A program made the position numbers and the translations under genes. Below the pieces are notes generated by a model. It saw nothing but the letters and a program-made list of their open reading frames with translations, did no database searches and had not been told where the DNA came from. A DNA stretch of 64,000 bases from Arbacia lixula (lineage: Eukaryota > Echinodermata > Echinoidea > Arbacioida > Arbaciidae): the NCBI GenBank assembly GCA_963669155.1, contig OZ022587.1, positions 1,753,808 through 1,817,807 of the forward strand. The letters run 5' to 3'. This document shows, one piece after another, positions 7,266 to 63,954 of this stretch (positions within the stretch are counted from its first letter, which is position 1; every line of letters begins with the position of its first letter).

Positions 7266-7346
7266 ATGGTGCCTAAACATCTAATTTGGATGCCTGACCG
7301 TGCGGTCATCCTGGTTGGACTACTCGTTCTGGTTTTTGACCCTACT
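7266..7346 (+). CDS. Gene A exon 1: signal peptide
   Basis: ATG at 7266 has a good context (A at -3, G at +4); an in-frame ATG follows at 7290. The 27 residues contain a charged start (MPDR) followed by the hydrophobic core AVILVGLLVLVF, typical of a signal peptide. The exon ends at a GTGAGT donor in phase 0. The first FN3 exon has an acceptor at 9335 that also opens in phase 0, so the join reads FDPT-AGVTDLS. Both phases had been assigned from the reading frames, so the match supports the model. Confidence 0.6.
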
Positions 7347-9024: not shown

Positions 9025-12000
9025 GAAGGGGGGTACAAGCGGGGAGATGAGTGCTTAGGCATGGTGTAGTCATACAAATGTACCTGGCTAACATAACATT
9101 TGTATATCATCCCCCCCCCCCCCCACATCCCTCACCCACAAGTAAACGCCGATACTTAGGCTTCATTCTTGCACATCTCGGCTGTTTCAGATTCGCTCAC
9201 TGGTCGATGAATGACATGGAATTGTCTACAAGCTTTTATTTACCACTCGCGTTCCGATGAAAAAAACCTCACCATCCGCTGCGTAATGTACACGGTGTAG
9301 TACAACTCATTACGATATTGATCTCTCATTGACAGGCTGGAGTAACTGATCTGTCCATCTCCGACATAACGACCTACAGCGCGTCAGCTACCTTTACTCC
9401 CGGCGGCGCTACGGAGGTCAGTGTCAACGTGCTCGTCACAAATGGCTCCGCGGAGAGCGCTACGGGTTACCCTGTGTTGCACGCCATCTCGACTGGGGTT
9501 GCATCTACTTCCCTGTCCCTCGAACATCTGTTCCCGAGTACAGAGTACAATATTACTGTGCAGCCAAGATTCACCAACAGCACGGGAGTCTTTCTCGGTG
9601 ATGGTGACTCGGATTCATTCACTACACAAGGTAGGCAACTATTGTGGCATTCTTCACAAACCTGCATTGCAGCAAAGTAAAAAGCGATATGGTTTAGGCT
9701 TGCTACATTCTTTCATTGAAATTACCTTTTTTGTGAACCAGATGCAGTCGCATCGTATAAAACAACGAAACAGAGACCTATTTTTGGTCTTAGTTCGGTA
9801 GGCATGAGCCCTAACCAGGGCCTGCCCTAACATTATGAGGAACCCTACGCCTTCGCCTTGTGTGGTCCTCATACACGTCGTAGCAGTACGTGTAGGTAAG
9901 TATCAGTCCTTGGAACTAAGTTGGGTGGGAGGGGCCAACATTTGCCTTAATATCTAAACCTTTTGCGCACAATGATCAAATTCAGTGTAAAGTGGAAAAC
10001 ATTTCACGGTGCGTGCTTATGATTATATCCATTTAAACAATCAACCAAACATGCTGCATTCATGATATATGACAAGTCAATTAAGTGAATACATTTTGAA
10101 TTCAGATAGGTAAGTGGCCAAACATCATTGGTCAAGGTCATATGAAAATGGAACTCAATTTATTATAGCTTTGTCAGACTTGGAACAATAATAACATAGA
10201 CACGATAACTTACTTGTAATTATTGAGGTCTGATATGTGAATATGTCAAATGTGAATTTGTGATGTTTCCAATTCTACCGGGTTTCACCATGGAGCATGC
10301 ACGTCTGATATATAACAGGTGTGTCTCAATAAAATGTTATGATCAAAACCCAGCTTTTGGAGGCATTGGACAATAAACTTGAATGATTAGAGTTGATTGC
10401 TATATATTTCAGTGCTTCGCAGGAGGACGCAGGCTTGTATATGCGCAGTCGATTTTTTATTCTATCTAGTAATGTTGTCCTTGTACAACAAAGCATTTAG
10501 ATAGGTGTTGTGGATTTTGAGTGTATTATCATTATTTATTTCTTTTTTTAAAGAATCTAGTATCACTCTGGAAATAATCACCGAGACCCTGGTTCAATTT
10601 ACGTACCAAACTGATCCTGGGACACCCAGCGCAGCTTACACGTACGCAGTCGCCCATTTCGGTCGTGAGGATGAGGCTGAGACTGGCGTATCGAACCTTA
10701 ATTCCCAGGCAGGAATAGCTAGAGCTTTTCTCTTCAACTTTCCAACTATCAGCCCTGGCGATCTCCTTTACGCCTCCGTATCTTTGCAAGGCGCTCTTGT
10801 CAATGAAGTTGTACAAAGGATTGGTAAGAGGACAAATTTAATTTGCAGATATCATTTTGATTGAGAGATTCCGTGATTTATATTTCGTTGCTGAAGATAT
10901 AATTTTGTAATTTGTAATCAATTTTTACATGTGAAAATAGTACATCTCAAAGCATATCATGGTCCCAAAGTGCCATTCATTATATTATGTTTGTAAACAA
11001 ATAACACTGCTCACCATTCATGGGACAGTATTCTGACCGTAAACCAGAAATGTTCAGTAAACCTCCCGTTAGAACATAAAATGCCTCAGAATATCTTTGT
11101 TTTCTTTTTATTCCTAATTGATATCAATAAGGCTACCAGTAATGTACATCCTTCCACGTAGATTTGATACGTTAACACCACCAATTCTCTAAGAATTGAA
11201 ATGCACATCAAAGATCATCTATGCGTCTTAATGCAGAAGATCATTTCAGATAAACATCACAGTTGATGAATTTATTTCTCCTGAAGCTCATCATCACATT
11301 ATTTACCATATCTCCAGCTCTTTTAAATAAAACAGACAACTGTAATGTAAGTTGGCTTTTCGGCATATTAAAAGATGATTATAAAAACTGTATGCAGATC
11401 CATATTATTGTCAATATGTATATTTGAAGATTATTCGACATTTGATGACTGATGTGTGCAGAGTATGGTGCACCAACACGAATGATATCCCTGTTTCTTA
11501 TAACACAAACCCTGATCTTGTTTTGTGCTTGATTAATTTCAAACGGATGAAATGCCTCTTCCTTCACGCAGCGCCTGCTCCTCCAACCAATCTGGTGGCC
11601 ACCCCTGTTGGATGCAGCGCAATTCAACTGACCTTTGACCTTCCCGCAGAGGGTTCATTCGACAGCTTCATAATCCGAGTAAACGGCATGGTCTATAGTT
11701 CCCTGGACAACTCCTCAAACACGATGATCGTCACCGGCTTACAGAAGAACATGTCATACAACATCGCAGTCACCTTATATGTTGGTATCGGAGGAGATGG
11801 AGCTGAGAGCGTACCGTTGTTCAACTCTACCAATCTAGGTACATGAAGTTTATTAGTTCATACGACCTACTTATTAACATTACCTACCACCACAATGTGG
11901 TGTGAGCTTGAGGTATCAAAAATAATAGCAGATGCATAACATAAGAGAACATACATTTCTGAACAAGTTGAATCCATTTTTGGCATTTTATGATGCCATT

Positions 12001-15000
12001 TTCTTTGTCATGATGTCATATACACCTTTTTTGTCATGATTTTCCAAAACAGAACAAGGCTCATATCATCTCTTAATCTCAAATTAACAAAAAGCTGAAA
12101 ATATTTAAATCATAGCTTTGCTTTTCAAATTGGCACATTAATCAGTTATTGGCTTTGAAATGTATGTTTTTGAACTCTTGTAATGTTCATTCTGTTCAAC
12201 AGTTAAAGTATCTTTAATTGCCTGTTTTTGGCATTTGCCTTGTGCAGAAACATGCACTTTGGATGGCTTTTTCACTTGTTTAGTGCACAATTTATGCATA
12301 ATGCCCACTAATACTGGAAAACATGACTTGTCATCTTAAATCCTCTTTATCAACTAAGTAGCGGTTCAAATTGTATGATATGAACCCAAACGACTGGAAA
12401 TAACATTGCAATCATTAGAGACGGGGGCCATAATATCTTGTGTTCTTGGCCTATTTTGTATTCCTTCAACGCGAAGGCTGCCTTAGTTGGAAAACATAAA
12501 AATGAACCGTAATAGAATGGAAACATCCGCTTGATGATGATAATGATGCGCGTTGCAATGCTATATAAAAATAGCAGAAAAGCTTAGGCGTTTTCATTGG
12601 ACATTTTTTTGAGAGAAGCATGTTTGGAGGCAAGGCTGTAACTAATAGTTCGCATGCACACAACCAATGTTGACCCAGCAACATTTTGATATAAGTGACA
12701 TTGTTTTGACCCTAATTAGACTCTGCCTATTACATCAGATCACAATATGTCACTAGAACGGTCATTATGCCCCCCCCCCTCCCCCCATCCCCAGTCTGAT
12801 TACAGTTAGCAGAGGCAAACATGCTCATAGGCATAGATTTAATAATCACTTTACACGAGTTAACATACATGTGATGTTATCACGTGCACGGGTATGGAGA
12901 CATTTTCTTTTACAAAATGTTACTTAATTAAGACGTTTGCTGGCTAAACCTACAAGGTGTTAAAAAGAAAACTTATTACTCTTGATTTTTTTTTTAAATG
13001 TCTTTCAAGTATTCTTGTAATCCTACCTTAAAAAAGCAAGTTTGTTATCAGTTATTATTATTATCTTAATGATTCTTTGAATAACTAATTTTAAAAGAAT
13101 TACCAAATTTTGACCAATATAATTGTAGTTAATGATTAATGCCTATTGTACATCACAAAATCAATCCACAGGGTCGTACCGGCCAATTCGCTAATGGGTT
13201 TATGAGTCTTGAACAACTATGAAAAAATTATTTTTGGAAATGTGCCCCAAAGTTTTTGGTTTCCTTTTGAAGCCCGCACCTTCCACATACATTGGCTAAT
13301 AACCCCCAAAACAAGGTGATAACACCGACTACTGCATACGACACATACCTGCATAGCTCATACAGTACATGGTACATGAATGAACAACGCCACCTCGCGG
13401 CATATTACACCATCACACTCAGAACTAAGACAGTTCTAGCCAGTACTCCGCTATGTGTATTATGGCTTTGTTCCTCAGCATGTTGGCAGTGGGTCAGAGC
13501 GCAACCACCGTTTCATGAATGAGGGGAAATGATATTACGCAAGTATGAACCCGGTATACGCCAATTAGGCATTATTGCGCAAGAAAGAACTTGTTTTAGC
13601 ATACATGGGGCTATAGTAGAACAGTAGGTATTTTCGTGACGGAGTGCATTAGTGTATTTCCAACATACGTATTAGCTGACAAGTTACTGCCTTTGGCTCT
13701 AATAAGTTTGTTATCACCATTACATTTAATTTATTGCAGTTGAGTATTGGACATGTTCACATTTCTGGTGCAGAGAAGTTAAAAGTGAGATTAGCGATGG
13801 GTCCAGGAGGTTCAGTGTTGACATATGAATGTGTACTCGATGAGACCAAACGCGTGCATACATTAGGCTAATTCAAAGTTAAAATGTTGCTTACATGGAC
13901 ATTAATGGGTGAGCCTTGTGGGTTGCTTTCGGACATTTCATGAGTCAATTGGCCATTCTCCATACCATATTATTTAGGAAAGTCGTCCCAAAATGCACCG
14001 CACAGCGACATCCAGATTTTGTTGGCAGTTGTCTCCGCTTCCAGTATCATACACTATTGCACCCGACGAAAAGCGGACATAACCGCAAAATACAGTCATA
14101 TCTGGCTATGCAGTTACCTGGATTTAGCGGCCCCCTGCCTTTAACGGCCACCCCAACTCCTTTGCAGAGAAATTCAGTGTTAAAGACCCTTAATATAGCG
14201 GCAACCTGTTTTACGCGGCACAAATTTTGACCGTTTATACCGTGTACAAATATAGCTGCGCAGTGCATCATGTGACGGCTTTCCTTCCATGTAGTAAGAA
14301 GAATTAACCACGCCGACATTCACCTCTGTTCCGTAGTGCCGGCCCGGCCAGATATATCAGTATCCAGAATAACTCCAACAAACTCCTCTTTGAACGTCAC
14401 CGTAGAGGTCCCTGAGTCTCCTTCCGATGATGTGATCCTGCGGTATTACGAGTTCGGGTCTACAGATATCTCGACCATTAGTGCGAGTGCAAGTATCATT
14501 GTTACCCTCACTGGACTGAATGCGTTCACAAAGTACATACTAGAGGCCGTTTCAGTGTGCGAGGGCTTGGAAAGCAGCGTACAACAAATATCTACTTTTA
14601 CAGGTATGTGGGATGTTAGTTTAAGTGACAGGTATGTTGTTGTAGGTCACTAGGCCTATACCCACAATAACACTCTCATTGGAACGCTAGCTTATACTTG
14701 GTAAAGGAATTTTCCTGATGTCAGCTGACAACATACGTCGAGCGGCAAAGCAAACCGCATCAACGTGAATACAGCTTTGATTATAAGTTACCAAAGAAAA
14801 GAACAGGAATGTAATTGGCATGCCCCCTTCATTATGGCGATAATGAACATTTGATTAATGCAGAATTGCTCAATACACAGGCATTCCCTCAGTCCCATAC
14901 GTAAATAACTCGGTAATGATAGGTGATATGTTGGTACTGAGAGGGTTAACACTCACGAACCTGTCCTGTCACTGTTGATCTTTGTCTCTCCCCCAGCTCT

Positions 15001-18000
15001 GAGCCCGCCTACAAACCTGCGTGTGACATCCGGCACCTACTCCACTCTGGACATCGAGTGGGAGGGTGTCCCGGGCGCACTTGCCTACAAGGCTGCTATC
15101 TCAGACGACAGTTCCACTCTCAGTGCCACGACACACAGCTTCATAAACTTGGACTCTGGCGTCGACTACACTATTACCGTCATCAGCACGCTAGGGGACG
15201 ATGATTCCGTTGATAGCGAAGCAGCGACAATCACCGGAGCGACTGGTAAGTGCCGTATGGACCATAATCGTAATGAACATGAGCGTCAGGTCAGCTTCCT
15301 TGCTGACTAGAGTCAAAGGAGTTCAGCTCCATGCATGTCAACGTATAGATTAAATGACTGTCTTCACTGATTGGAATCGATTGAAGTCAAATGCATTCAG
15401 CTCCCTGTATGTCAACGCATAGATTAAATGACTGACATCACTGATTGGAATCGATTGAAGTCAAATGCATTCAGCTCCATGTATGTCAACGCATAGATTA
15501 AATGACTGACATCACTGATTGGAATCGATTGAAGTCAAATGCATTCAGCTCCATGTATGTCAACGCATAGATTAAATGACTGACATCACTGATTGGAATC
15601 GATTGAAGTCAAATGCATTCAGCTCCATGTATGTCAACGCATAGATTAAATATTACTGACATTACTGATTGGAATCGATTGTAGTCAAATGCATTTAGCT
15701 CCATGCATGTCAACGCATAGATTAAATCAGTGACATCACTGATTGGAATCGATTGTAGTCAAATGCAGTCAGCCCCATGCATGTGAAGACATAGATTGAA
15801 TTAATTACAACAGTTGATTGGAATCTAATGAAGTGAAATGCAGTCAGCTCCATGCATGTCAAGACACGGATTGAATTAATGACAACAGTTGATTGGAATC
15901 TAATGAAGTCAAATGCAATCAGTCCCATGCATGTCAAGATTCAGATTGAATTAATGACAACAGTTGATTGGAATCTAATGAAGTCAAATGCAGTCAGCCC
16001 CATGCATGTCAAGACACGGATTGAATTAATGGCAACAGTTGATTGGAATCTAATGAAGTCAAATGCAATCAGCCCCATGCATTTCAAGACACAGATTGAA
16101 TTAATGACAACAGCTGATTGGAATCTAATGAAGTCAAATGCAATCAGCCCCATGCATTTCAAGACACAGATTGAATTAATGACAACAGCTGATTGGAATC
16201 TAATGAAGTCAAATGCAGTCAGCCCCATGCATGTCAACGCATGGATCGAAACAATAACGTTACTGACAGGAATCCATTGAAGTCAAATGTATTCAACTCC
16301 GTGCATGTCAACGCATGGATCAAATCACTGCCATCACTGACGGAAATTGATTAAAGAATCTTTAATCTTATACAAAAACATGGTGTACAAGAGGAATTCA
16401 TAAGCTTATTCAGAAGAAATGCAAACTTACATATCGAAAATTCCTCACTTCATAGAGAGTCAGTCGCCGCGAAACATAATACAGATTGCAAAGAAGTAAT
16501 ACTATCGTAATTAATTTCATAACACTGAAGGAAACATGAAGAAGAATTGACAAGTTATCAATTGTGCTCTTGGGTAAAGTTTCGCTAAATAAGTACATGC
16601 GTTATGAAATCATAACTACTAATGTAAAATGGTTGCATCTCTTAATTAATGTGTGGTAGATATTGCATATAACATGCCGTGTAAATTTACACCATCCGAA
16701 ATATGTAACTAATAGTTATGAATCTATTCATCTTAACCCGAGAGCGAAATTAGGAATATTTGACATTGTCGACAAAATGTAAAGAAATGCAAATGCGGGG
16801 TGGGGGCCGAATTCATGTCAGTGATGTTACAGAGGTTATCCACGTTATAAGTGGTCAATTATGTGCAATAGTCAATCAATGTTTAGAAACTGAGAACTTT
16901 CCTGATAAACGTACAACAGCGAGAGTCATCACTGTATTTATTGGTGGCTCACGTCTAATGGAATAATAAACTTTCGTCCAGTCTCTGTTTTGCCTGTATA
17001 TGTACAACAATTTTAAGTTGTATTACTCAGTGAAATATATCATATTCTAGTCAGCTTGGCTTTAGGGCAGAGCATTCTATTCCTTTTGCTCTTGTAAATT
17101 GTGTTCATAAACGTGTAATTTCTGTTGATAACAATGATTTTTTTTTTTCTGGTTGGGGGGGGGGGGGGGGGCATTTCTTGATCTTAGTAAAGCATTTGAT
17201 TTATGGGACCAGAATATTCTTTTAAATAAATATGAACATATATAATCAAATTTAAATAGATATTTTCAGTAGCCACTACGGCAGGTGTAATCACTTAAGT
17301 TTCATGAAATAATCATTGATGTTTAACCGAATTGGGATAGTTATGTATAGTCATTAAGTAATAATTTGTCAAAGAATATTCAGAATTATGTATGAGCTGA
17401 AATCATTTCAGAATCAACCTATTTTACAAATGATATATATCTCAATAATAATCCCATATTTGATGTATAAATGTATAAGGTATTGATGCTTGAAGTTATG
17501 TTTCTGCCACGCATTTAAACAGAATTATCAAACTTCAGAACCGTGCAGTTAGAATTATAGATCATTCGTCATTTCTTGCCCATACGACTGAAATATTTTA
17601 CTCGTTGAAAATCTTCCGTGTTGATGACATGTTAACTTTTCATGCTGCAATATGTATCTTTTTTCCGCAACAATCTTTTACCGAGACCCCTCCAAGATTT
17701 ATTTATCTTAAACTCGTGTATTCATTACCATGATGCACGCAATGTTGTCAATTGTCACTTGCCAAAATTCCGAACCTCTCTCGGTCGCCATTTGGGTAAA
17801 ATGTAGCTTTCAGAAAAACGTATATTTTGGGGTCTTTGAGGTCACACATTTCCTTTAGCCAACTATCAATATTGCTAGAGTTTTCGTTTTTGAAATTAGA
17901 GGAGCTATCTTCAGTCATTTTCACAATATTGTGGTCAATCCGTTGGCAAAAGGGCGTATCTGTAGTTACATCCCTTGAACGGCAGTTTATGCCGATGTTT

Positions 18001-21000
18001 TTTTGGTTTGTTTTGTTTGTTTGATGTTTACACAATTTTCTTTCGTGCCTCCAAATGGGCTAGCCTATTTTTTCAAAGCAAAAGTCCACTCTCAGCTGTT
18101 ATTCAAACCTGGCTGATCAATGTATTGCTCTGCACATATGTACACTCACACAAAGGGCAAGATAACGATTTCTCAAATTGCTTGCACTTATTCAGAAAAT
18201 ATGATTCCCTGGAAGTTGAGCTGCTGAGCCATTTTACAAAAGTAATATTTCAAATGATATCAATTAACATTAGACCACTGCATCAAAATTAAGTGGCGAT
18301 ATTCTAAGAACTCTGCATAGACAACTTGTATCTTTAACTTCAATATTGCTTCAAGAAACTGTAGAGATCTAGAGGTCTACTTGTAGTCTTAAAGTTAAGA
18401 CTAATCGATACCTACAAGGACCCAGGACTAAGACTAATCAAACAAAAGAGCCTAAGTGAGTTCTAACTCTAATGACTCTTACTCTTAGATAACAATCTCG
18501 TCAACTCAATTGTGAGACCATTTAAATCCAACTATATGCTCTTCTCCGACAACTAGCATAACTCAGTGATGTTCTCTAATGAAGATGTTAAATGAGTAAA
18601 TTGGTAATGAAAAATATGCTGTCGATGTCAACAATATTTTTTTCTGAACTATTTGTTTAGAAAAACAATGATAGCCAGCAGTGCATTGACCTTCCTGCAC
18701 CCTGAGTAAGGTCCAGACAGAGCTCGACAAGGCTTACGTTAGTGTCAAGACATGTTGGAACAGACGTGCATCGTGGTCATTGGGCTTACATTAACGTGCA
18801 CAATCTTTTAAATCTTTTACAGTACATGGGACTGAGGAACAAAGAGCGTGCGATCTATATACTTTAAAAATATAATGTCTGAAATTCACACTTTATTACC
18901 AGCACATAGTAATTTACATACCATCTGCCTACCTTGACAAACATTCATTTGATAACTACGCAAATACTCAACAAGTCAGTGCTTTACCTTTCTATGGTCG
19001 CGAAGAAATGTTTTCGTCTCCACCGGTATATTTGCAGATACGCCCTTTGGCATGAAGAGAGGAGGAATTTATCTCTAGATACACATTTTTGACAAGTAAA
19101 GAATGGAGATTTTCTCGTGTATCCCTAGATATATCATTTTGCCATATAGAGAACAACGCGGCAATTGTAAGATTTTCTTAGCAATGGGACGTAGGCCTAC
19201 CGAGATAAAAGTTATTCTACTACTGGTAAAAACAAAATATTTGGAAAAGAAAGAAATATTCAAAAATAATCTTTGAAGGATAAATAAAACCCTAAAACAA
19301 ACTCCATCATCATCATCCAATCCGGTGGCTACTACAACAAAAACAAATGCCCAAAGTTTCAAGTCGTCTATCTCCATTTTATCTTCAATAGCGCAGAGCT
19401 CAGTAAATCCTTTTAGCATATAAACGGCCGCTGTTTTGGAACAAACGTACAAAAGGACCTATTATTTTTAACTTACTTTCGTTCAATGTAAATTCGCAAT
19501 AGTGAAATATTTTTTAACGTAAATGTAAAATTTTTTCATTCCAGAAATACATTTTTAACAATATTTAATTTAAATGCCTAAATTTTCATTGAGCACTTCG
19601 GAATTGTATGTAATGTTTTTGTTGTAATTTTGTTCTAGTTCTCTGTTTGTTATTGTCTACCGTCACAGATTTCAACAATTTAGTGTCGGCCCAGTACATG
19701 GTTATTTCTTCCTGGCTGCTACCCTCTCATGCAATATTGTTTGTCTGTGTTTTGTATAGTTATGTTCTATTCATGTTCATGTGTCTATTTATTCTTTTGC
19801 ATTGAGTGAAATAAAGTTGAATTGAATTGGATAAAAAAGACCATGTACATTAATTAAATCAATTAAAGAACTTCCGTACATTATCAAAATAAACTCCGTA
19901 CATGTATTCGGTACATTCACAATAGACCCCTGTGGAATCGTTTTACTTTCTCATACGCTATCGTACAATGCCGGGCTGAGTTCTGTGTTTTCGTCGAGGC
20001 CATTTTTATGTTTAATGGGATTTTTGGGGTTAAACTTGCATCAAAGGCACTCGAAGTGTTTATTACATATGGCTGAAACCGTCCCTGAAAATTTCATAAA
20101 TTGTTTGATTCCCTCTGCCATCTTGCAGGCTCCATTCCTAGTGGGACCTTGATTGTAACGGATATTACATCGATATCGGCCACTGTACGGTGGGGGGCAT
20201 ACGATGGGGTTAATCTGTATATCATCTCGGATGTTGATGGTTACATCGGTGCTGAGTCAACAACTGACTTGAAAGCTGAAGTCAATATAATCCTTGGCGG
20301 AACTGTGATCAATATTACCCTCAAAGACACTGCACAAACATTACTGTCATATAAAACATTCAGAAGTGGTGAGTATGTGTTTGCTTTAATTGCATTTTCA
20401 ACCTGTTTGTACTCCTAATATTAGGACCAGACCAGGCCAGAGCGCCCTTAACAAACTGTCAGTCAAATTAAGTCGTTATTTGGGGGTAATGTGGAGGCTA
20501 TCCCTTTGAAAATTGTTTATGTGGAGTGGCGTGGGCAGGGTTGTTTCTTACAAGGAGCATGTGGACATTGGAATGGATATTGAGAGAGATAATCGTAGAA
20601 ACTCTGATCGTGGCACATTGGACAAGTGAAGTCTGGCTCACTGAAGAGGTTCATCTGATTGGCGTGTAATCATGGAAAACGTTTTTTTTTTTTACACAAT
20701 TACGAAAATTCACTTTTTTTTTAAGCTTTCGCTTGCTAGGCTGCAAGCTTCGTCAGACCGTCGTAGCTGTAGGAGCTGTCGTAGCTGGCGCTGTTGCTGA
20801 TGCAGCACGACGGAGAATGGGATCGTATGTCTAGGATAATGCGAGCATCTAGAACAGGAAGCCATTGCCACGGCCCCAGATGACATCAAATCTAGACTCT
20901 GGAAGCGCTATGTAGATGACATTCTTGCCATTGTGGACAAGAACAGCATGGACAGATTACCTTTGCATCTGAACCAAGTCGACGATACTGGCAGCATCAA

Positions 21001-40464: not shown

Positions 40465-40506
<42 letters not shown>

Positions 40507-52919: not shown

Positions 52920-55900
52920 CTGTAAGATGGAGAGATAACAAGGTAGTGTTTGGAAACATGTCATTACATTGCGTCGTTTATCCATACATACAGAAAAGCG
53001 AATTACAGCATGCACATGCTGTCTATCCATTACAATGCGCATGTACACAAACTCTTGCACAACGACATGCTTAGGTACATACAAATACGCACGAAAATGA
53101 GTTAGACAAAACATGTGACAAAATATGGGAATAATATAAAAAGAAAAGTCAAATTCGAATGACGATAATACCAAACATTAAACAAGTAAAAAAAAATGTC
53201 ATTGCTAAGGGGGTAGATTTCGTAACATTTTGTAACGGCTGCTAATGGATCGGCAGTTAATTGATCTCTAAGTAAGATTTTCCTTACAGTCGTCTAAGAG
53301 GAACGCACCCGTGCACACAAACACACACACACACTATGTATTCATCGGAATTAGGGGATATCCTTAGGTTCTTTCGTTCGGTTGAATATTTAAATAATGT
53401 TTCCTTTGTATCAAGTATCATGACTTGACATCTTAAGTGTTATCATAATAATTGTAAATGGAACTTCCTTGTCGGGGCTCACATGTTCTTTCTCCATTAA
53501 ATGTTCCAGTTTCTTCAAGATTTGCTGGAAGGTCGATCTGTTCTGAGGATCCTTCTCCCAGCATCCATTCATAATGGCGTATCTATCGAGGAAAACACGA
53601 CAGTGGCGTTTTGAGTAAGGGGCATGCTTGATGGGGGCTGGAATTAACTTCCGTCTTAAAAAAATATTTTCAGGGAAAATTGATTAGATCGTGCACTGTG
53701 GCTCTTTTTACCATCAGCAAACACAGTTTTGATAAATACACAACGTTTGCCTAACTTTTGTTGGGTAGTCTAAAGTTCAGTTTCCATTGAGCATTTTGTT
53801 TCTTCTCGTACGACACTTTTTCCTGGCAGACTGAACATCAACTGTTTAAATATACCATTGCTATTTCCGTTGTATCTCTTGAGAACCAATTTGCTCCAAC
53901 ACACCACTGTCAATGCGAAATGTGACTATCTAACAGCTGTGTAAATGCACTTCTATTGCAGCTGCATTTAAAAATAAATAAATGTATCATCGTTAAACTC
54001 TGGTGTCTTAATATTTCAATAATTCTAATTCTCTTCTTGACTCACAGTTCCTGACCACAGTGTTGTGGGCATGGCATTTTGTAACCCTGCGTGACTTCAC
54101 GTTGAACTATGTCATCGGTCATCTTTGGGTACGGTCTGGCACCTGTCGGGTGATATAATAAATCTATAATGTCAACTTGCTATCCAAAGCTCTTTTTCTC
54201 ATTTGTCACAAAAAGTCCAATCTTTAGAAAAAGATGTGATATGTACGTGCAATATTGTTTTTTTAATGATAACGACATAAAGAAAAAAAAAGGCTGACGT
54301 TGAGGCAAGCACAAAAGGAAGGTTGTCGATGTTTAGGACATATTATGCACCAAAATATAATTTGCATTCATAAGGGTAGGTAAATCAAATAATAACGACT
54401 TGCTTTACGGAGCAAGAGTTGAATATTGTTTTTTAGCAATGTCCAATTATTCTTGGTTGAAAATATTTGTAAAAACTTCACCTAATGTCGTGATCTCCCA
54501 TAAAACGATACCAAACGACCAGATATCGCCTTCGACTGAGCATGCGCTGTCCTTCATAGCTTCGGGGGAAGACCAACGAGTTGGTTTCTAATTAGAAATG
54601 AATCATACAACGAGAAATAAATATATTTTCGCGGCAGTGAACATAATTCGATCATATTGCAATTTTGATTATGTACGATCAAGCAACAGAGTTTGAAATT
54701 TTAATCAAAATGTAGAACCAATATGTTTTGTCATTGATCTTTTATGCAGTATTTATCATGTTTACACGATTCTGATATCATCACGTTTAAACGCGTATTA
54801 GCATGGCAGTCTACAATCGTAGAGGGCACATGCTCATCTTTTTTCCTGCAACATAGTCTATGCTTTATGTACATTACAGCGACTATGGAAATGGGGATTC
54901 CTCCTTCCGCTGATTATTTCGCCTCAAAAAATTGGCTCAAGTGAGAATTAGTAACTGAATGTATGTTGGAGTATTTGAATCGCAGTCTACAACCGTATAG
55001 GGCACACGTTCATCTTTCATCCTGCAATGTAGCCTGTGCTCTTATGTAAGCGACTAAAAAAATGGTGATTCCCGCTTTCGCTGATTATTTCACTCGAAAT
55101 TTACTTAAGTAGAGATTATTTATATATGCATGTCTATACATCGATTCGGCCTACATTTGATGATAGGTATATGAACAAATGTATTCATGTATTTACTATC
55201 TTATAAAAACCAACAGTATGCCTGAAGTCTCACAGGTTGTTCTACCATTCGAAATAATCATCTTTTCCCAACTGAGCATCGAGAAAGTTATTACTGCTTA
55301 CAATGTTTATGCCGTAGATAGAAGCAAGGCCATAGTCCGAAATCTTGCACTGCTTTTCCTCAGTCATCAGCACGTTATGGGCGCACAGTGCACCGTGTAT
55401 TATCTGAACAGAATAATGAAACTGAAATTATGTAAATTAAGAATAAGTCAAAGAATAAATCTCATTGGTTACGAAAGGATGTAATATTGATGACAGATAA
55501 CAAGTGTTGTATACGATTCTAAATTAAACATTCATAATCCGTTGTCCTTGTTTTCCAAAATTAGTGGCCTGAAAATGCAATAGGTTTCCCATCAAATCAA
55601 AGCAGATCATTCATGAAACATGTGCCGGTATTTATGGGAAAGAAATGTTATAATCACTAAAAGTGTTGATTTTATATATGTATGTGGAGAAAGTAAACGT
55701 GAAGAGGTTGCGATGGCGATGGAAAAAGTGAGGCAAAATACAACATACTAAATATAATGGGTCTTTGAGTAAATTTATGATTTAGATATTTTTCTCTGGA
55801 GTGTCTACTATTTTGTATGTTGTAGATGTGTGGGGTTTTTTGTGTGTGTTTTGAGTGTGTATGTTCATTGCATTTTTAAAGAGCAAACAATCCGATGCCT

Positions 55901-58900
55901 AAACTATCAGTTACAGTTAAGAAAACGGGCGAAATAACAACAATGTAAGTAGGCTTATTGACCTTTCTAGAAGCCAAGAAGTCCATGCCTTTCGCGACCT
56001 GCCAGGCGAACTTGAGCAAGTTGGATTCTTCAAGGTTGACTCTGGTAGATTTGAGGTTGCTGTAGGTGGGTGCGGATTGTCCCCCACTGGTCTGGAGATG
56101 GGTGAGGAGAGACCCCCCTGGTATCAACTCGTACAGGAGGCTGGCTGCAAGTAATACGAAGTAACAGAGAAACCACGTATAACAGCAATACACCAAAGGC
56201 CTTAGTGCCATCAACAGTATCCGTGATTTTTTTGCTAATAAACATTTATAATTTTTAACTGCATGATTATGTAACTATTACCACTCCCAATATTCGTACT
56301 ACTACCAAATTTACCAACAACACCAAAAAAGTAAAATAAAAACACCATCTGATTTGCTAAACCTACATAATTCCAACTACCACACCGCCACCACATCTAC
56401 CACTACAACTACCACACCTACCACTTCAGCCGAAACACCACCCCCAAAACCCACGGTATCATCTAAATTACCACTACCTCCGCCATTCCAACTGCCACAC
56501 CACCATAGCATCTACCACTGCTACCTTTACCAATATTACCACCACAACCACCAATACTACTGAAACTTTTACAAGTTCGACTATTTATAGTCAAAAGACG
56601 ATTAAGAAAACTTCCCATTGGCATCAAATAGCGTGACTGTTAATTTGATTAGATTCTCATTTTCTCACAAGCTTAGATCTGATGACAAAATATTCGACCT
56701 GATCTTTCTGGAACATGCTATGCTAATTAAATATTCCCTTTACAATCGTGTAGATGTACACTTTCCTACGCAGTGACCGATGCATGTGACAACATGAGGA
56801 TGATTCGGGAGCTTTGACAGGATCTTCGATGATTGGTCAATATTGGATGACTTGGTCACATGATCTATGACAAGAAAAGAAACACAACATATATTTTAGA
56901 CTGAAGCAGTTTCCCCTAACACAATTGTACGATTGTTTATGAAAATTAAACTAAAAAAAAACTACACTCCAGAAAACACAAATGATAGTGCAAATATTAT
57001 TTTAATAATCCGATGTTCCAATTAATATAAGATCAGGCCATAAAGAGTTAACATACATACCTGGCACGCATCTAATCGCCACAGGCAGCTGCCACTGTTT
57101 TGAGCGGAGTGCTCCCGTCCACATATGCCCAAACTCCCCGCGTCCGATGGAGCCAAGTCGCGAGAAGAACAACATATCGTCCGTGGCTGGTGAGACTTCG
57201 CCCTGCTTTGCGAGAATCTGTGACGTGTATGCTGCTTCTGAATAATGTGAAGTCAGTGCAATATAATATTTCAAGATCAACAATGCATTTATTGAAAGCT
57301 TTAGCGGAACTTGCATGTCACGAATCGTTAAATGATACAATTTTTGTATTACTATTCCATGCATATTTCGTTGAATCCCCCCCCCCCCTAAAAAAAAAAA
57401 CATCATTGATAGGCCTTCATTAGTTAGATTAAGTGTTGTAAGAAATTAAAAAGTTGTAGGGAATTCCCCCAAGTTCCATTTCTTACAAAATGTCATCGCT
57501 GTGTAAGCCTACACGACGAGATTGTGTGATATTTGTACTTTCTCTTTTGTTTGTTGTTGGGTTGGCAAGGGAATGTAGCGTATTATAAGGTCGCTAAGTT
57601 CATGTGACAATGCGGAGAATACAGACCTTTTCATTCAAAACAATAATGTTGTAGTCATGACAACAGGATATAAAGGAAGGATGCAGACTGTTACCATTTC
57701 CTGAACTTTGAACCATCTCATAGGTCTGATTGTCATTTCCCTTCAGCGCTGTGTCTTGTCCTCTGCAATGAATTATTGGCATAGAGCATGGTTCCATACT
57801 GACGTGAAATTGAATCATTACAAACCAACATCAATAGCGAGACACATCAATCTTAATACATGAACGTCTACTCCCCCTTGTTGAACAATGGCGTCACTTG
57901 TACTAAAAGAGAGGGTCTCTACGTAGATTTCACTCTTTGAAATACGAACAAAAGGCGATTAAGTGAACAAAATCTCACGGGCATGTTATCATGGTTATAT
58001 GAAATTATTCAGTCCAAAATTCGATGTGTCAAGCATTTGGTTGTTTTTTAAGCGCTAGTTTAAGACAAAGGCTATTTCTAAATGATCAATGCTATATTCC
58101 CTTACTTCACAGACCAACCAAATTTCAAAAGCGATCAACACCTATCATTGTATGATACGTAGTGGTTCATTTAGAGGTCCAAATATGATCTGTTTACATT
58201 GTACTTACCCTTTCTTCTCTCTTTTGCCAGCAGGTTGTCCTACAAATTCGGACAAAATGTACACATAATTTATATTTGCTTATATTGATCGCAGTGACGT
58301 GCTATTGCTTCTCGACATTCCTTTTAGAAGAATAAAAACCAACAGTAAGTTTAATATGGTAATTGGACAAAGGCATCAGTATATTAAGAAGACATGTGGG
58401 CCGTTGGTTTATAAATCCAAGATATGTTCCAGAGACTTGGTTTGCCTTTCAATTGCAGTTTGTTATTCCATTCATGCTAAGCTTTCTACTCGCTCTTTGT
58501 TCTAATAAGAGAAAATTTCCGAGCATGTCAAATACACCATGTTGCATTGAGTCAAGGGAGATGAGAATATATTTAGCCAACTCGCCGCTTTAGGGTTAGT
58601 TGGTGACACATCGTACATTGCACTAGATAATATTCATGGATATTACTGATTAGGAGACTGAATGTAAATGTTTTGGGAAATGTAACAAATATATTAAAAG
58701 GCAAGAGAACTAACAAACCTCGCGTATAACGGTCCCTTCTCCATGTTCTCGAAAGTACGAATTGTACAATATTGATGCAAACAGCGATGGTAAGAAGGAC
58801 TGCCAGGACGACCATGCCTGCCATAGCACCAGGGCTCAAACAACTGCATGACATAACATCCTCTGATGGACCTTCACATTTAAGTAAATTATCAATTAAT

Positions 58901-61900
58901 GATTCACTTGATATAAATATTACTATTACTCCCCCCCCCCCCCCTTTGAGTTCAACTTCAAGTTCAAGTTTATTTATTTCAACACTTACTTAAAGAAAAA
59001 AAATCATAATATATACATGAACAGGTTCATGACATAAACATATTAAAACAAGTTAGCAAACACAAATATAACAAATTAAAGAAGTGTTCCTTACGAGGGG
59101 TGGGCTTTAAATAAGGTAATGCCTTCATGCCTACTCCACAACACTTCTTTAGTTTTGTGTATTTGTGTTTGGTAAATGTTACAATCGTTGTTTGTCATAT
59201 TCCCCTTGATTTGTGTATTTTAATGCTTATTTTTAAGTCATTGATGATATAAATGAACTTGAACCTCATATAGAACAATATCTCAGATAAAAAAAATGTG
59301 TTCGCTTTGTACACATTTAAGAATCAATGTATTTTGATAGAGCAACATTAACATGATCATATTAGTGCAAATTCAACTTTCTGTGTACTTTCGTGGAAAA
59401 AAGTAGGTCAAAAGTAGGGAGGGGAGGGGGGGGGGGGAGAAAATGATGATATTGATGTTGATATGAAGTGAATCATTAATTGATAATTTACTTAGACTGT
59501 ATTTCACTGGTGACGACAACAATGGAGCAAAGCTCACATAGGCTCACGCATTAAAATGCTTGATGCAACCAGAATACAACAAAACTTGACTACTATATCT
59601 TTATACTATTTTTGTCCATCTATATAACTACCCCTACATGCATTCGACTAGGTGTGAGTTTGTACAGTCATTTCAATAGTGGAAGAAACGAGTTTTGTAC
59701 ATAAAGGATAACAACTGTATCGTGATTGGAATATATTGCATAGAGATAGATATGTTAGCAGACAAGCCACGGACATGAAGACAACTTGTGGTGATTAGCT
59801 CGTGATTAATTAGAAATGTTTACCCGACACAGCACTTGTTTGCTGACAGCTTTCAGGTGACGAAGGAGCAGCCGTGGTCGCTGTGAAATCGAGAAAAACA
59901 TAAGCAACCAGAAAAATCGTTTTGAAAACAAAACAAAATCAGGTCAATTCTGTGGATGTGTACAGGCAATGCAAATGTTGAGAAAACGAGTTTTGTACAT
60001 AGAACCAACAAAAATATTCTCCAATTTGGGGGTCCACCAGACACGGGCTGACTCAAAATGGCAAGAAATATCGACGAATGTAATAAGTAACATTTGACTG
60101 GTACATTTTCTCACATCATATGAGGTATCATATCAAAGAAAGGAAAATGTACTAAAAGATGGTAGCACATTTGTTGGCCTTAGGGTGATTTTCATAAGAA
60201 TTTTGGGTAAAGAATCTCATTTTTCTATGTTCTATCTGAAATATTTAACTTTTATGACATCACAATTTTGTTCATATTTCAAAAACTCTATTCATTCATG
60301 AGCTGGAACTTTTCAATAAAATGTGCAAACATATAGTTTATACAATATGAACAATTAATGACAGTCTCTCAATCTATTTAGATTTGTCAGCTTTGACAGT
60401 TTGAAATGATTAAAGGTCAATACATATACAAATGCAAAAGATATGAAAATCTAAAGACTTGTAAATTCCTGCAGCCCTACTAATGTTGAAAACTTTACTT
60501 TTTGGGAATATAGAAATACAAATTATGAAGAAATTTTACTTTCTATTTCTGCTGAGAATATAAACCTACCAACAGTAGTTGTTGTTGGTGAACCGGGTCC
60601 ACTTGTGCTCGGCTCTGCTTTGTTAGATTAGAACACAAACATATTGCAATTAGCAATGCAAATAAGATCTAGGTTTAGAAAAATAATAAGCCTTCAAATG
60701 TCAGATAGCTGATTGTATTCATGCATCAACTGGCAGGATAAGTTCTTTGTGTTTATCAATATGAGTTTCTAAATACCCTTTTTCTGGATTATAAATACTT
60801 CCAAATTAATGTGTAAAATAAACAGGGCAAACAGGAAAGGGGTAAGAAGTATTATCGTGATAGAACATGATGATTATTTCGGTTACCTTGGATGTTGTTA
60901 ATAATACAGAGCTTTATACCTCAAAGGGATGGTTCACCCTGTATATAAGTTGGCTTCAATAAAAGCAGAAACATGAAGCAAACATTATAGTGAAGCTCTG
61001 AAGAGAATCCGTCAAACGATGATAAAGTAACAATCTTTTGAAATTTAAATTTTTTAACGTCACGTGCGAGGTGCTCTGCCATATGTTGTGTATAAAAATA
61101 AACACGAATTGCTATTTTTTGTTTTTTGCACAGGTGAAAGGGTGCATTTTTTTTTAAATTTCCTATATACATTTCCTAAAAAAATTGTACATAACAAATT
61201 GGAACGCCAACCCCCCCCCCCTCTTTTTTCCCCACGTGACGTCTCAAAATCAAAACTTTTATGTTTCTTTCATGTGTCTCCTTTTATTGAGAACAATGTA
61301 ATTTCAGAGAGAACTATCCCTTTAAGAGTTCACTACGCTCAAAATATCTTCATACTTGTTTTGTCCATCCATATCACTGCCCCAGTGAGCCTTCTACATG
61401 GTGTGGATTTGTACAGTAACTACGTTGTTGAGGAAAGAAATGTTGTGCATAAAATCTCTTTTTTATATATATATTGCATAGAGATTAATAAGTAAGAAGA
61501 CAAATTACAGGGGACTTGTTGTAATTCGTTCGTGGTTATGTAGAATTGTTTACCCGACACAGTACTTGTTTGCTGACTGCTTTCAGGTGACGGAGGAGCA
61601 GCCGTGGATGCTGGGAAATCGAGAAAAATGTCAACAAAAAAATTTCGTTATGAAAACAACAAACGTCCAAACATCAAATGAAACTGTACATTGCGTATAC
61701 ACAGTTGAATATTGTAAAGCTTACCCAGGAAAATTATGAACAAGATATTGTTGAAACTGATGTGCCGTAAAATATATATATTTTTTTATGTTAACATTAC
61801 GCGATTCGTATTTGTTTGATCGCTTTGTTTTTTGTTTTTTTTCCTCGATGCTAAGGAAAGTGTTTTTTTTTAAAATATCACTTTTTTCCGAGCTAGGTGA

Positions 61901-63954
61901 TACATAAGATTAAAACCAAACAAGCATTGATAAGGTTACATTGCTATCATGCAAAAAACAAGTCTGTTAGGCAAGCCACTTACACCCTGGGTCGTAGTTG
62001 ACAGCTTCAGACCATATTATGCCCAGATCATTGCCAGCGGTGCACTTGTAGTCAGTTACATTTTCTGAGATGTCCACCAGAACAGAGTGGTCTGTTGTAG
62101 AAGAGTGAATCTGCTCAGATCCTGCGTAGATGGTGTAATTGTTGATGGCAGGATTAGCGGGGTCTACACAGCCTACAACAGGTGAGATTTGACAGGATAC
62201 ACGCAGCTTATCTCCTTCCTTGCTAGGTTCCAGAATAGCGATAGTGGCTGTATCAATCGTGGGAGCATCTGTTGGAATCATATGAAACAGTCAGCATCGG
62301 ATTGAAAAAGTTCCCAACATTTACTTTAAAGTGCTAACAGCACCATATCTTTCCTTCAAACATTATTTAGTACGGCATGTAGACTGCAAAATTGACTACA
62401 CTGATAAAATGTATCTGCCATGATGACAACTAAAATACTTCAGGGCATTAGATGTTTGATAAACACTGTACATATGTATATGTACTCTATTCCACAGTTA
62501 GTCAAATGGGAAGCGCAACATGCTTAGCATTAACATGTACCCCCCCCCCCCTCGCACCCACCCACCTTTTGCTTTCATGTTATTACAGTCGAATTTCCTT
62601 TGCATGTACATTACATCTTGTGATCTACAATTAGGCTATTTTTATTACGGGAGCTACGTTTCCCTGAGCCCCTGTGTAATGCTTAACTGCTTGCCATCTC
62701 ATACATACCGTACATGTACCATTCACAAATCAAACAACTTGGGGAGATAAAAATTACATTGAACATTTAGCTGTGCAGCAGCTGCGCTGTTGAGGCTCGT
62801 AACCACATGGCCACTGGTGGTGCACTTTAGATCCTGTCCATTCATTGTAGTGGTTGCTGTAAATGTGATTTCACTTCTTGTGTCAGACAGGTCTGGGTCG
62901 GTGTTTTTTAGGATTAGTAACAACAGGAGTCACGCCCAGTGGGATGTCGTTGAAGGTCCATGAAATGTCTAGTTGTGGTCTGCTACCAACAACGTCACAC
63001 GTGGCTGTATACTCGGTGCCAGCACGCAGTGGGTCAGTGGTTGACAACGTCATGGTGGGAGTGGAGCCAACTGTCGATATCGAGACACAACACAACATTC
63101 AGTGTCCGTGCATGTGTTTGTTCTACTAAGAAACACTTTTATCAATAATTGATATTTGAAACAACTTTCATAAACTGATGATGTTGATTCCAGCCCTTAT
63201 ATTTGCATCATTGTTTTATATTTGCATTGGTAATACACTCAGACCCCATAGAACTTCATTCCGTCTGGCGTAGAGCCTGATTTAACCCTTTGTACACTGT
63301 AAACCTTACTGTGCCAGGCAAGCTAATCCAATGTCAATTATTTTAGGATGGTCACACTTTAACTTTTTTTCGGCGTTAGAAACAAAGCTTTGAAGCTTGC
63401 TTAGATCGGAGTTTGTTAGAGATTAAGGAGAAATACATATCTCTTCTGGGAAAAATAAAAATATCTGGAGAAGTATAACTACATTGTTGAGGGTTCATTT
63501 ATTTCAACAATTATACATATTAGTTAGCCTATATCCAAGAAAACCTATGTCGAAATTAGCTTGCTCCAATTGAATTGTCACATTGCTACTTGGGCAAGTC
63601 ATTATTGCTGATGGAAACGGACTCACCCTCCACATTCAATGCATATCCTGTGATATTGGCTTGAACTAGGACGAGGCATTGGTAATATCCCTCATCCTCG
63701 ACAGTCGCTGCAGTGATGTTCAGTTTGTCTCCTGGTGGTGATGACACAAAGTTGCTGTACTTCGGATGAGCATTGGTCGTCCCTCCATTGACGACAATTT
63801 GTACAGGCCACGGCCCTATCCCATCAGTCCATATATAAGAGCCTGACTGTACAACATCTGATGGGCATCTGAGGACAACGTCTCTGCCTCTCTCTATGGC
63901 TCCTCCCTCTGGCCCAGTCACAGTCGCCGTTTGTCCTTGAATCGCTCCAATGAG
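52866..63954 (-). CDS. Gene B: Ig-domain single-pass receptor with tyrosine-kinase-like pseudokinase domain (17 exons, 5' end beyond window)
   Basis: Minus-strand exons encode three Ig-like domains, a stalk made of three small exons, a transmembrane helix, a juxtamembrane segment, a kinase-like domain and a tail ending in LYELAS. From the stalk onward the exon lengths match gene A almost exactly. Catalytic residues are lost as in gene A: VAIR for VAIK and HGA for HRD. The first visible exon (63627-63954) begins in phase 0, as does the first FN3 exon of gene A after its signal-peptide exon, so only a signal-peptide exon may be missing. An extra A in a six-A run (T run 62904-62909 on the plus strand) breaks the frame of the second Ig exon. 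This could be an assembly error or a genuine null allele. Confidence 0.85.
53483..53582 (-). CDS. Gene B exon: kinase-like alpha-H/alpha-I
   Basis: 100 nt, same length and phase as gene A exon 28. Encodes YAIMNGCWEKDPQNRSTFQQ, with the CW-DP-R signature intact. Acceptor TCGATAG, donor GTGAGC. Confidence 0.92.
54046..54142 (-). CDS. Gene B exon: kinase-like alpha-G
   Basis: 97 nt, matching gene A exon 27: ARPYPKMTDDIVQREVTQGY then KMPCPQHCGQEL. The 11 intronic bases before the exon (TCACCCGACAG) are shared with gene A. Confidence 0.92.
54482..54587 (-). CDS. Gene B exon: APE-like motif and alpha-F
   Basis: 106 nt, as in gene A. The APE motif reads SPE (RWSSPEAM) and the alpha-F motif is DIWSFGIVLWEI. 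Donor GTGAAG, acceptor AATTAG. Confidence 0.92.
55302..55403 (-). CDS. Gene B exon: degenerate catalytic loop and DYG
   Basis: 102 nt. The loop reads IIHGALCAHNVLM: HRD has become HGA, so the catalytic Asp is Ala here but Thr in gene A. KISDYGLASIY follows, with Asp of DYG kept. Confidence 0.92.
55690..55830. repeat. Piece of a dispersed repeat
   Basis: GAGGTTGCGATGGCG is shared with the left edge of the F1 element region at 31934 and, in complement, with GATCGCAACCTC at 41660. Confidence 0.45.
55963..56144 (-). CDS. Gene B exon: hinge, alpha-D and alpha-E
   Basis: 182 nt, nearly identical to gene A exon 24 (LLYELIPGGSLLTHL; WQVAKGMDFLASRK). It is among the most conserved exons between the paralogues. 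Confidence 0.93.
56290..56570. repeat. ACC/CCA-rich low-complexity tract in gene B intron
   Basis: Runs of CCACTAC/ACCACC. The gene A intron at the same position (38980-39250) is the GGT/GTG-rich complement, so this is a shared diverged intronic tract. Confidence 0.7.
56760..56864 (-). CDS. Gene B exon: kinase-like alpha-C and beta-4
   Basis: 105 nt: NIDQSSKILSKLPNHPHVV, again without Glu at the alpha-C salt-bridge position. Donor is GTACAT as in gene A. Confidence 0.9.
57061..57237 (-). CDS. Gene B exon: glycine loop and beta-3
   Basis: 177 nt. The loop is GSIGRGEFGHMWTG and the beta-3 strand is LPVAIRCVP, with the same Lys-to-Arg change as gene A. The residues before the loop differ more than the loop itself. 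Confidence 0.92.
57695..57762 (-). CDS. Gene B exon: juxtamembrane segment with YEMVQS
   Basis: 68 nt: GQDTALKGNDNQTYEMVQSS. The tyrosine motif is retained while the flanking residues vary from gene A. Confidence 0.86.
58209..58239 (-). CDS. Gene B exon: juxtamembrane micro-exon
   Basis: 31 nt: GQPAGKREKK. Recognised by match to the gene A micro-exon at 37274-37304 and by the TTTGTAG acceptor and GTAAGT donor. Confidence 0.8.
58719..58871 (-). CDS. Gene B exon: transmembrane segment
   Basis: 153 nt. SCLSPGAMAGMVVLAVLLTI then AVCINIVQFVL forms the single membrane helix; SRTWRRDRYTR is the basic stop-transfer. Three codons longer than in gene A. Confidence 0.9.
58945..59267. mobile_element. 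Foldback pair of LINE-tail-like ends
   Basis: Left GCAAACACAAATATAAC and AAAGAAGTGTT pair with AACACTTCTTT and GTATTTGTGTTTGG on the right; AAGTTCAAGTTTATTTATTT pairs with AAATGAACTTGAACC. A C run (58931-58944) adjoins. Confidence 0.75.
59824..59880 (-). CDS. Gene B exon: stalk exon, proximal copy
   Basis: 57 nt: TTAAPSSPESCQQTSAVS. It aligns with gene A exon 18 and with the distal copy at 61554-61610. About 100 bases of intron upstream (minus strand) also align with the gene A intron at 35950-36060. Confidence 0.82.
60570..60617 (-). CDS. Gene B exon: stalk mini-exon
   Basis: 48 nt, phase 1-1: a Ser/Thr/Gly/Pro-rich sequence (EPSTSGPGSPTTTTV) matching gene A exon 17 around GPGS. Confidence 0.7.
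60905..61330. mobile_element. MITE-like repeat, copy 3
   Basis: Terminal inverted repeats CAAAGGGATGGTTCACCC (left) and AACTATCCCTTTAA (right); centre with AACGTCACGTGCGAGGTGC. Lies in a gene B intron. Confidence 0.75.
61554..61610 (-). CDS. Gene B exon: stalk exon, distal copy
   Basis: 57 nt: STAAPPSPESSQQTSTVS. A duplicate of 59824-59880 including flanking intron (both share the intron string GTTTACCCGACACAG on the plus strand). Gene A has only one copy. Confidence 0.8.
61984..62268 (-). CDS. Gene B exon: Ig-like domain 3 (membrane-proximal)
   Basis: 285 nt, phase 1-1. The Ig cysteines are in KLRVSCQISP and DYKCTAGNDLG. A further Cys (VVGCVDP) may form an extra disulfide. Opening APTIDTATIAIL. 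Acceptor CCAACAG, donor GTAAGT. Confidence 0.88.
62758..63070 (-). CDS. Gene B exon: Ig-like domain 2, frame broken by one extra base
   Basis: The 5' part reads GSTPTMTLSTTDPLRAGTEY with Cys in TATCDVVG and Trp in ISWTFN. The 3' part, in another frame, reads DPDLSDTRSEITFTATTT with Cys in DLKCTTSG. The two join at a run of six A (T run 62904-62909 on the plus strand). The exon is 313 nt; 312 would fit the phase 1-1 pattern. Sequencing error or true frameshift cannot be told apart here. Confidence 0.8.
63627..63954 (-). CDS. Gene B exon: Ig-like domain 1
   Basis: 328 nt, entering in phase 0 after CTTTAG with LIGAIQGQTATVTGPEGG and leaving in phase 1. Ig cysteines are in VVLRCPSD and DEGYYQCLV; SYIWTDG holds the core Trp. 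The phase-0 start resembles the signal-peptide junction of gene A, so the next upstream exon probably carries the signal peptide. Confidence 0.87.

Follow-up and report, generated by a model that had tools for sequence, protein, structure and literature searches.

Tail-to-tail genes of the sea urchin Arbacia lixula predicted to encode receptors on a shared pseudokinase module

How two neighbouring genes come to have much the same inside and different outsides was the question raised by a 64,000-nt stretch of DNA from Arbacia lixula (C12:1753808-1817807; contig OZ022587.1 of assembly GCA_963669155.1), hereafter called the window, which lies within a 607-Mb genome and is free of N. Translation and splicing of both strands placed gene A (plus strand) and gene B (minus strand) tail to tail, over a span of window positions 7266-63954 that starts with the ATG of A and ends with the Ig1 exon of B. 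Both were predicted to encode single-pass receptors built on a pseudokinase derived from a receptor tyrosine kinase (RTK), which are probably docking receptors phosphorylated in trans and used for recognition. Their ectodomains were of the FN3 type in A and of the Ig type in B, as an original prediction from the same DNA had it.

Cytoplasmic module shared by genes A and B

Each gene possessed a module of 12 exons, namely a stalk, a transmembrane, two juxtamembrane, seven kinase (K1 to K7) and a tail exon, whose introns were GT-AG throughout and matched in phase between the two genes. Ten of the 12 exon pairs were equal in length and shared 84.7% identity over 1061 bases, and the homology proposed for the cytoplasmic exons was thus borne out. 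The equality of length, which had been claimed for all of them, held for these ten pairs but not for the transmembrane exons (144 bases in A, 153 in B, differing by nine) and the tail exons (81 and 54, differing by 27). The introns and the 3' flank could also be aligned in gapped pieces (A 35115-44736 with B 60925-51347) at 60-65% identity, and because they align besides the exons, the likeness is far beyond chance and the module is a segmental duplication. General kinase similarity as the source of the likeness was ruled out by the common exon lengths, phases and introns. The module exons are as follows, in window positions.

36105-36161, plus: A stalk exon, 84.2% identical to B stalk exon b
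36706-36849, plus: A transmembrane exon, homologous to that of B
37274-37304, plus: A juxtamembrane exon 1, 31 bases
37621-37724, plus: A juxtamembrane exon 2, AYEMV tyrosine
38348-38524, plus: A K1, glycine loop kept, beta3 Lys replaced (VAIR)
38696-38800, plus: A K2
39357-39538, plus: A K3
41014-41115, plus: A K4, HGT for HRD and DYG for DFG
41865-41970, plus: A K5
42306-42402, plus: A K6
42813-42912, plus: A K7
43649-43729, plus: A tail exon and stop; a 27-bp duplication gives two YLVPDKLDE units
59824-59880, minus: B stalk exon b
58719-58871, minus: B transmembrane exon
58209-58239, minus: B juxtamembrane exon 1
57695-57798, minus: B juxtamembrane exon 2, TYEMV tyrosine
57061-57237, minus: B K1 (VAIR)
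56760-56864, minus: B K2
55963-56144, minus: B K3
55302-55403, minus: B K4 (HGA, DYG)
54482-54587, minus: B K5
54046-54142, minus: B K6
53483-53582, minus: B K7
52866-52919, minus: B tail exon and stop, one YLVP unit

Kinase fold, catalytic residues and docking tyrosines

The kinase-like domain matched PF07714 (2e-64 in A, 2.8e-67 in B) over positions 6-258 of 258 and thus has the tyrosine kinase fold. It lacked catalytic residues in both genes, in agreement with the original prediction. Among 29 locus rows representing 28 distinct copies of the genome (A was included twice), the beta3 Lys was replaced by Arg ([VL]AIR) in all 29 and the HRD Asp was gone from all 28 that hold K4, while the DFG-like Asp was present in 27 of 27 rows reaching it, one further copy on C20 having GYG, and the glycine loop was kept in nearly all copies read. 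The beta3 Lys, HRD Asp and DFG Asp that together mark an active RTK were therefore not all present. Ratios of nonsynonymous to synonymous change (dN/dS), obtained by a simple pairwise count, were 0.23-0.44 for the kinase exons (15 pairs among six copies), which indicates purifying selection; a fold without its catalytic residues, apparently kept by selection, is what a predicted pseudokinase receptor would have.

The same replacements were observed in the sea-urchin relatives from Lytechinus, Strongylocentrotus and Diadema (P0001-P0013), which lacked the beta3 Lys in 12 of the 12 proteins covering it and the HRD Asp in 13 of 13, whereas all six starfish relatives from Asterias and Patiria (P0014-P0019) possessed VA[IV]K, HRD and DFG. 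The activation loop of the aligned urchin proteins was about 8 residues shorter than the starfish loop, whose tyrosine they also lacked. Loss of catalysis in the sea-urchin line is the simplest reading, since active kinases carry these residues and the starfish homologues keep them; judged by its residues, the kinase looks dead and the loss looks lineage-specific. The database names of the relatives (FGFR-like, Tie-1-like, Fer-like and Cad96Ca-like) mask one kinase-dead family.

That the domain keeps some catalysis by an unusual geometry, so that the receptors would be active or weakly active RTKs, we regard as very improbable: the glycine loop and DFG-like Asp, the purifying selection, a Tyr in the short loop of many copies and the example of ErbB3, which has weak kinase activity, would all agree with it, but neither the beta3 Lys nor the HRD Asp survives in the 28 copies checked or in the sea-urchin relatives covering these positions, and the activation loop is shortened.

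Tyrosines outside the kinase domain were conserved. The tail Tyr (Y715 of the Lytechinus protein P0001) did not vary among the 11 proteins of the alignment, whether dead or active, in which the juxtamembrane YE was conserved at 90% or more. The YLVPDKLDE-like tail unit varied from one to four in nine genes, with one in B, in the next gene of the array and in the C12 4.48-Mb copy, two in A, three in C20 copies 1, 2 and 5, and four in C20 copies 3 and 4. In the docking model, binding of a ligand or partner would cluster the receptor, the tyrosines of the juxtamembrane YEM(V/I) and of the tail YLVP/LYE would be phosphorylated in trans by a partner tyrosine kinase, and SH2 adaptors would dock on them, the pseudokinase serving as a scaffold or an allosteric dimer partner. 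Duplicated receptors with diverging ectodomains would then make up a repertoire for recognition, perhaps in immunity or allorecognition, and through A an FN3-bound cue would enter the same pathway.

Ectodomain of gene A and its relative on C22

Gene A extended from the ATG at 7266 to a stop ending at 43729 and comprised 28 exons encoding 1589 aa with no internal stop. When 12 candidate frames of its ectodomain were scanned singly, seven matched Pfam fn3 at E <0.003, only two of these over Pfam's own cut-off, and five gave no fn3 match; the joined ectodomain matched fn3 at 1.3e-46 in seven stretches. Since only seven units had fn3 support, the 13 FN3-like domains originally counted consist of seven recognized by Pfam and six assigned by size, exon phase and colinearity with paralogues. 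The exons upstream of the module are as follows.

7266-7346, plus: exon 1, start codon and signal peptide; open frame, GT donor, phase 0
9336-9630, plus: FN3-1, Pfam fn3 1.5e-4; paralogue C22:10366924, 72%
10554-10823, plus: FN3-2 (by position), no Pfam match alone; paralogue C22:10368853, 89%
11572-11838, plus: FN3-3, Pfam fn3 5.2e-9
14337-14603, plus: FN3-4, Pfam fn3 0.0023
14997-15245, plus: FN3-5, Pfam fn3 3.6e-6
20129-20368, plus: FN3-6 (by position), no Pfam match; paralogue C22:10386591, 71%
22496-22636, plus: FN3-7 first half, Pfam fn3 5.8e-4
23289-23438, plus: FN3-7 second half, splice phase 1-1; paralogue C22:10390798, 73%
23881-24111, plus: FN3-8 (by position), no Pfam match; C22:10392126, 47%
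25295-25570, plus: FN3-9, Pfam fn3 2.5e-5
26137-26355, plus: FN3-10 (by position), no Pfam match; paralogue C22:10394888, 61%
27480-27637, plus: FN3-11 first half (by position), splice model
28881-29007, plus: FN3-11 second half, splice model
30632-30862, plus: FN3-12 (by position), no fn3 match; paralogue C22:10398298, 69%
34021-34302, plus: FN3-13, Pfam fn3 6.6e-5; C22 copy at dN 0.11, dS 0.44 over 89 codons
34439-35115, no strand: fusion breakpoint interval inside the phase-1 intron 34303-36104; homology to C22 before it and to B after it

The 13 units were matched in the same order by FN3 units at C22:10366924-10399842, with 47-89% identity; a few of these matches hold stops, so that either the C22 copy is damaged or the matches overrun exon ends. 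A genome search with the FN3 ectodomain returned A itself, a fragment at C12:1319425-1320937, one unit at C22:8677728 and the full set at C22:10.37-10.40 Mb. No A-like FN3 units were found beside the other 38 module copies in a genome search in which the best candidates were scored and divergent units could be missed. The C22 gene was longer than the outside of A, with seven further matches at 10404312-10416288 that follow residues 1134-1960 of P0047, an FN3-rich Diadema protein of 1962 aa, and no matches to these later units were found at A.

The junction was located within a single intron. A 33982-34439 aligned with C22:10399500-10399965 (73%), and from 35115 on the fusion intron of A aligned with the intron of B from 60925 (64%). 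Because one A intron (34303-36104) bears both homologies, the breakpoint lies within 34439-35115; the ends joined there, of exon 16 (FN3-13) and exon 17 (stalk), are both of phase 1. FN3-13 had a dN/dS of 0.25 against its C22 copy (dN 0.11, dS 0.44, 89 codons), and this exon is therefore constrained. In a tree of kinase exons K1 to K5, A fell inside the 28 rows of this genome with 97/99 support, apart from Lytechinus/Strongylocentrotus and Diadema, and its module half, placed to clade level only, thus came from this lineage's own expansion. The colinearity of the 13 C22 units, the greater length of the C22 gene and the two-parent intron make fusion the best explanation of the difference between the outsides of A and B. 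Gene A looks like a chimera, whose whole outer half is related to an FN3 gene on another chromosome (C22) and was apparently joined through a phase-1 intron. The alternative that A is an old FN3 receptor kinase was disfavoured by the longer C22 relative, which has no module match, and by the place of A's kinase exons within this genome's clade. A limited search gave no FN3-plus-pseudokinase protein among the six proteins returned for A's ectodomain.

A might also not be one receptor, its FN3 part being a secreted protein of its own or a duplicate in decay and its module an orphan copy whose Ig exons were lost, or the join being an assembly error. We consider this unlikely. Although the single receptor was read from genomic DNA rather than from transcripts, and pieces of the ectodomain do get copied around (C12:1319425-1320937 and C22:8677728), the reading frame stays open through both parts (1589 aa), the introns are GT-AG, the phase-1 ends fit, and the dN/dS of FN3-13 is low. 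No match to the signal, Ig1, Ig2 or Ig3 exons was found between 34,303 and 36,105. The window is free of N, and a random misjoin is unlikely because the join lies inside an intron homologous to both parents.

In its FN3 part, the putative C22 donor resembles R3-type receptor tyrosine phosphatases (PTPRB, PTPRJ): the later units of P0047 matched the Ptychodera PTPRB-like protein P0053 at 6.7e-65, and PF00102 phosphatase exons were present at C22:10514864-10517499 on the same strand, about 98 kb past the last mapped unit. Other C22 phosphatase exons matched P0053 better than these, and the cytoplasmic end of the C22 gene could not be tied to a phosphatase. Gene A shares the FN3-repeat ectodomain with the R3 type but has no phosphatase domain, ends in the pseudokinase and tail, and is not a member of that type. 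The FN3-13 exon of the C22 copy (L056, C22:10399500-10402000) ends before GC where A has GT, and the intron then reads as a tandem repeat. Many Y_phosphatase (PF00102) exons, among the matches listed, were also spread along C5 (about 0.2-5.1, 13.7-13.9 and 16.7-20.2 Mb) and C27 and look like the product of a large expansion of phosphatase genes.

Other features were observed in or near the introns of A. Minisatellite arrays with units of 74/75 bp were located at 5498-6296 and 15311-16340 (about 11 and about 14 copies, respectively), the second within an intron of A. Tandem duplications within A introns occupied 32104-32906 (408 bp, 96% match) and 33265-33624 (181 bp, 93%). An intronic 247-aa open frame at 20840-21580, with no Pfam match, is by eye like a retroelement fragment; five other open frames scanned in the window had no Pfam match.

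Module copies, Ig ectodomains and related receptors

A genome search with the module of A matched exon K3 39 times, a lower bound on the number of copies. Twenty-three matches clustered in a 0.55-Mb stretch at C12 1.79-2.34 Mb that includes A and B (20 of the 23 on the minus strand), eight at C12 0.60-0.74 Mb and five on C20 at 14.82-14.89 Mb; single matches were at C12 1.155 Mb, which is probably a fragment (alone in 30 kb), at C12 4.486 Mb, and on C345, a 15-kb contig that possibly represents the 4.486-Mb copy in a second haplotype. The original description of A and B as a pair did not survive, since they are two among at least 39 module copies, and an isolated paired-receptor system was likewise ruled out. 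Paired activating and inhibitory receptors have similar outsides and opposite signalling, the reverse of A and B with the same cytoplasmic half and different outsides; nothing suggests such a pair, because both cytoplasmic halves are of the same kind.

Gene B consisted of Ig1, Ig2 and Ig3 exons and two stalk exons followed by the module, with a signal-peptide exon just past the window (L055 309-365). The three Ig-like domains originally predicted were thus recovered as three exons in the window, although Ig2 is frameshifted in this assembly in an A-run near 62,905 (62880-62920), by either a sequencing error or a true defect, the two being indistinguishable. The exons upstream of stalk exon b are as follows.

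63627-63954, minus: B Ig1, V-set-like; Ig_3 2e-5 and V-set 1.5e-4, both under Pfam's cut-off
62758-63070, minus: B Ig2, frameshifted near 62,905
61984-62268, minus: B Ig3, Pfam Ig_2 5e-5
61554-61610, minus: B stalk exon a

An Ig-type outside was found in seven of the eight ectodomains read, which were those of A, B, the five C20 copies and the C12 4.49-Mb copy, A being the FN3 exception; further swapped ectodomains may occur among the other 31 copies. All five C20 copies could be read whole, with signal, Ig1, Ig2, Ig3, transmembrane, juxtamembrane, K1-K7 and tail exons. At the C12 4.49-Mb locus, Ig2 and Ig3 exons, each matched more than once, preceded the transmembrane exon, upstream of which Ig1 gave no match. 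In C12:4480001-4510000 (L052-L054), several Ig2/Ig3 exons at 4492214-4505462 lay upstream of the module copy, corresponding to more than three Ig domains in one gene or to two adjoining ectodomains, and an Ig1-like match (4481929-4482054) was located downstream of the tail of the 4.48-Mb copy.

According to Pfam, the outside was Ig only (B type, C20 copy 1) or fn3 only (A), and in C20 copy 1 Ig1 matched V-set and Ig2 the CD80-like C2 set. In the predicted structure of P0001, the nearest neighbours of the Ig part were nectin-like 4, nectin-1 and CD22 D1-D3, with modest scores (target TM 0.38-0.48 among the first 23 rows). Ig1 was the most divergent Ig domain between distant copies: B and C20 copy 1 shared 48% identity in Ig1, 62-71% in Ig2 (two pieces) and 61% in Ig3, the kinase exons of B being 90% identical to those of the nearest C20 copy. 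On C20, dN/dS of Ig1 was 0.76-1.08 for copy 5 versus the other four and 0.29-0.87 among those four, in which Ig2 gave 0.43-1.48 and Ig3 0.45-0.92; these ratios are rough, dS being small with few synonymous changes.

The arrays and the Ig ectodomains make a role in recognition likely. Tandem expansion, a V-set-like divergent Ig1 and the three-Ig outline would fit an immune function and would fit adhesion as well. The family could instead serve adhesion, development or gamete/tissue recognition, the expansion providing cell-type codes rather than defence, and we hold this to be a serious possibility, short of an even chance. The nectin-1 and nectin-like 4 neighbours are adhesion molecules, Tie2 was the best single-kinase PDB match, and the starfish homologues look like active RTKs, a class that is mostly developmental; many-copy tandem arrays, some of them broken, and an outermost domain strongly divergent between distant copies are more usual in defence repertoires, although neither point is decisive.

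Several points weigh against docking receptors with a recognition repertoire. The partner kinase, the ligand and SH2 docking are inferred steps, and the splice that joins FN3 exon 16 with stalk exon 17 is a prediction from the DNA, as any co-expression of A and B would be. Only eight of the 39 ectodomains were covered, and the five C20 copies yielded no counterpart of the stalk exon of A and B. Nor does the short activation loop lack Tyr altogether, since many copies of this genome, among them B, have one at another site in it (SVYG/SIYG). Among the four young C20 copies Ig1 was no faster than Ig2 and Ig3, which speaks against steady diversification of Ig1, and the P0001 model was acceptable in the Ig part only (mean pLDDT 48 outside the Ig domains). 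Some copies look broken, with the Ig2 frameshift in B, a stop in K5 of C20 copy 4, GYG for DYG in C20 copy 2 and the lone K3 match at C12 1.155 Mb.

Among PDB matches with a single kinase in each chain, Tie2 scored highest (167 bits; Kit, 157); the top row was an EGFR chain that holds two copies of the kinase, scoring 111 and 112 bits. The alignment with Tie2 extended as far as the first tail tyrosine. In contrast to Tie1/Tie2, no EGF repeats were found, the outside was Ig only or 13 FN3-like units (A), and the catalytic Lys and Asp were missing; the Tie combination of Ig, EGF repeats and FN3 was thus not present. A sea-urchin SpTie1/2 has reportedly been described, as the title of an entry in a reference list has it. 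PTK7/CCK4 and ErbB3 likewise cross the membrane once and combine docking tyrosines with a tyrosine kinase domain that is dead or impaired, but such kinase-dead RTKs are known as single genes, whereas at least 39 arrayed copies, varying tail units and a chimera were found here. The starfish Ig-RTKs P0014, P0015 and P0017 (Asterias amurensis, 'uncharacterized protein') shared the Ig domains, a length of 742-760 aa, the juxtamembrane and tail tyrosines, and 28-30% identity with both P0001 and the database-search query, but had intact VAIK, HRD and DFG and are predicted to be active. The expanded sea-urchin immune families (TLR, SRCR and Sp185/333) are similar as lineage-specific expansions of recognition genes and differ in their domains, the inside here being an RTK-derived pseudokinase.

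Sea urchins have expanded innate immune families, and a 'Tie-1-like' kinase is named in Paracentrotus and 353 kinases are quoted for S. purpuratus, according to PMC10855541. The available portion of a holozoan tyrosine kinome paper holds no passage on such a family (PMC8662651). No published description of the family was found in the literature searched, outside which most subscription journals lie.

More speculatively, an RTK that lost catalysis in the sea-urchin lineage could have become a receptor purely for phosphotyrosine docking and then an exchangeable signalling cassette, giving rise to a tandem repertoire with diverging V-type Ig domains and variable numbers of tail units, in which an ectodomain was exchanged at least once with an unrelated FN3 gene; several recognition surfaces would thereby feed one pathway, possibly in immunity. 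Catalysis seems to have been lost from an RTK within a single animal group, with the similar receptor of starfish intact and that of sea urchins dead, and the docking tyrosines were kept and in some copies multiplied, so that the scaffold model of pseudokinase receptors becomes testable in a tractable animal. In sea urchins, whose large families of innate immunity genes are well known, these receptors would form a further candidate repertoire for recognition, and gene A would show clearly how an ectodomain can be exchanged in nature by way of a single intron.

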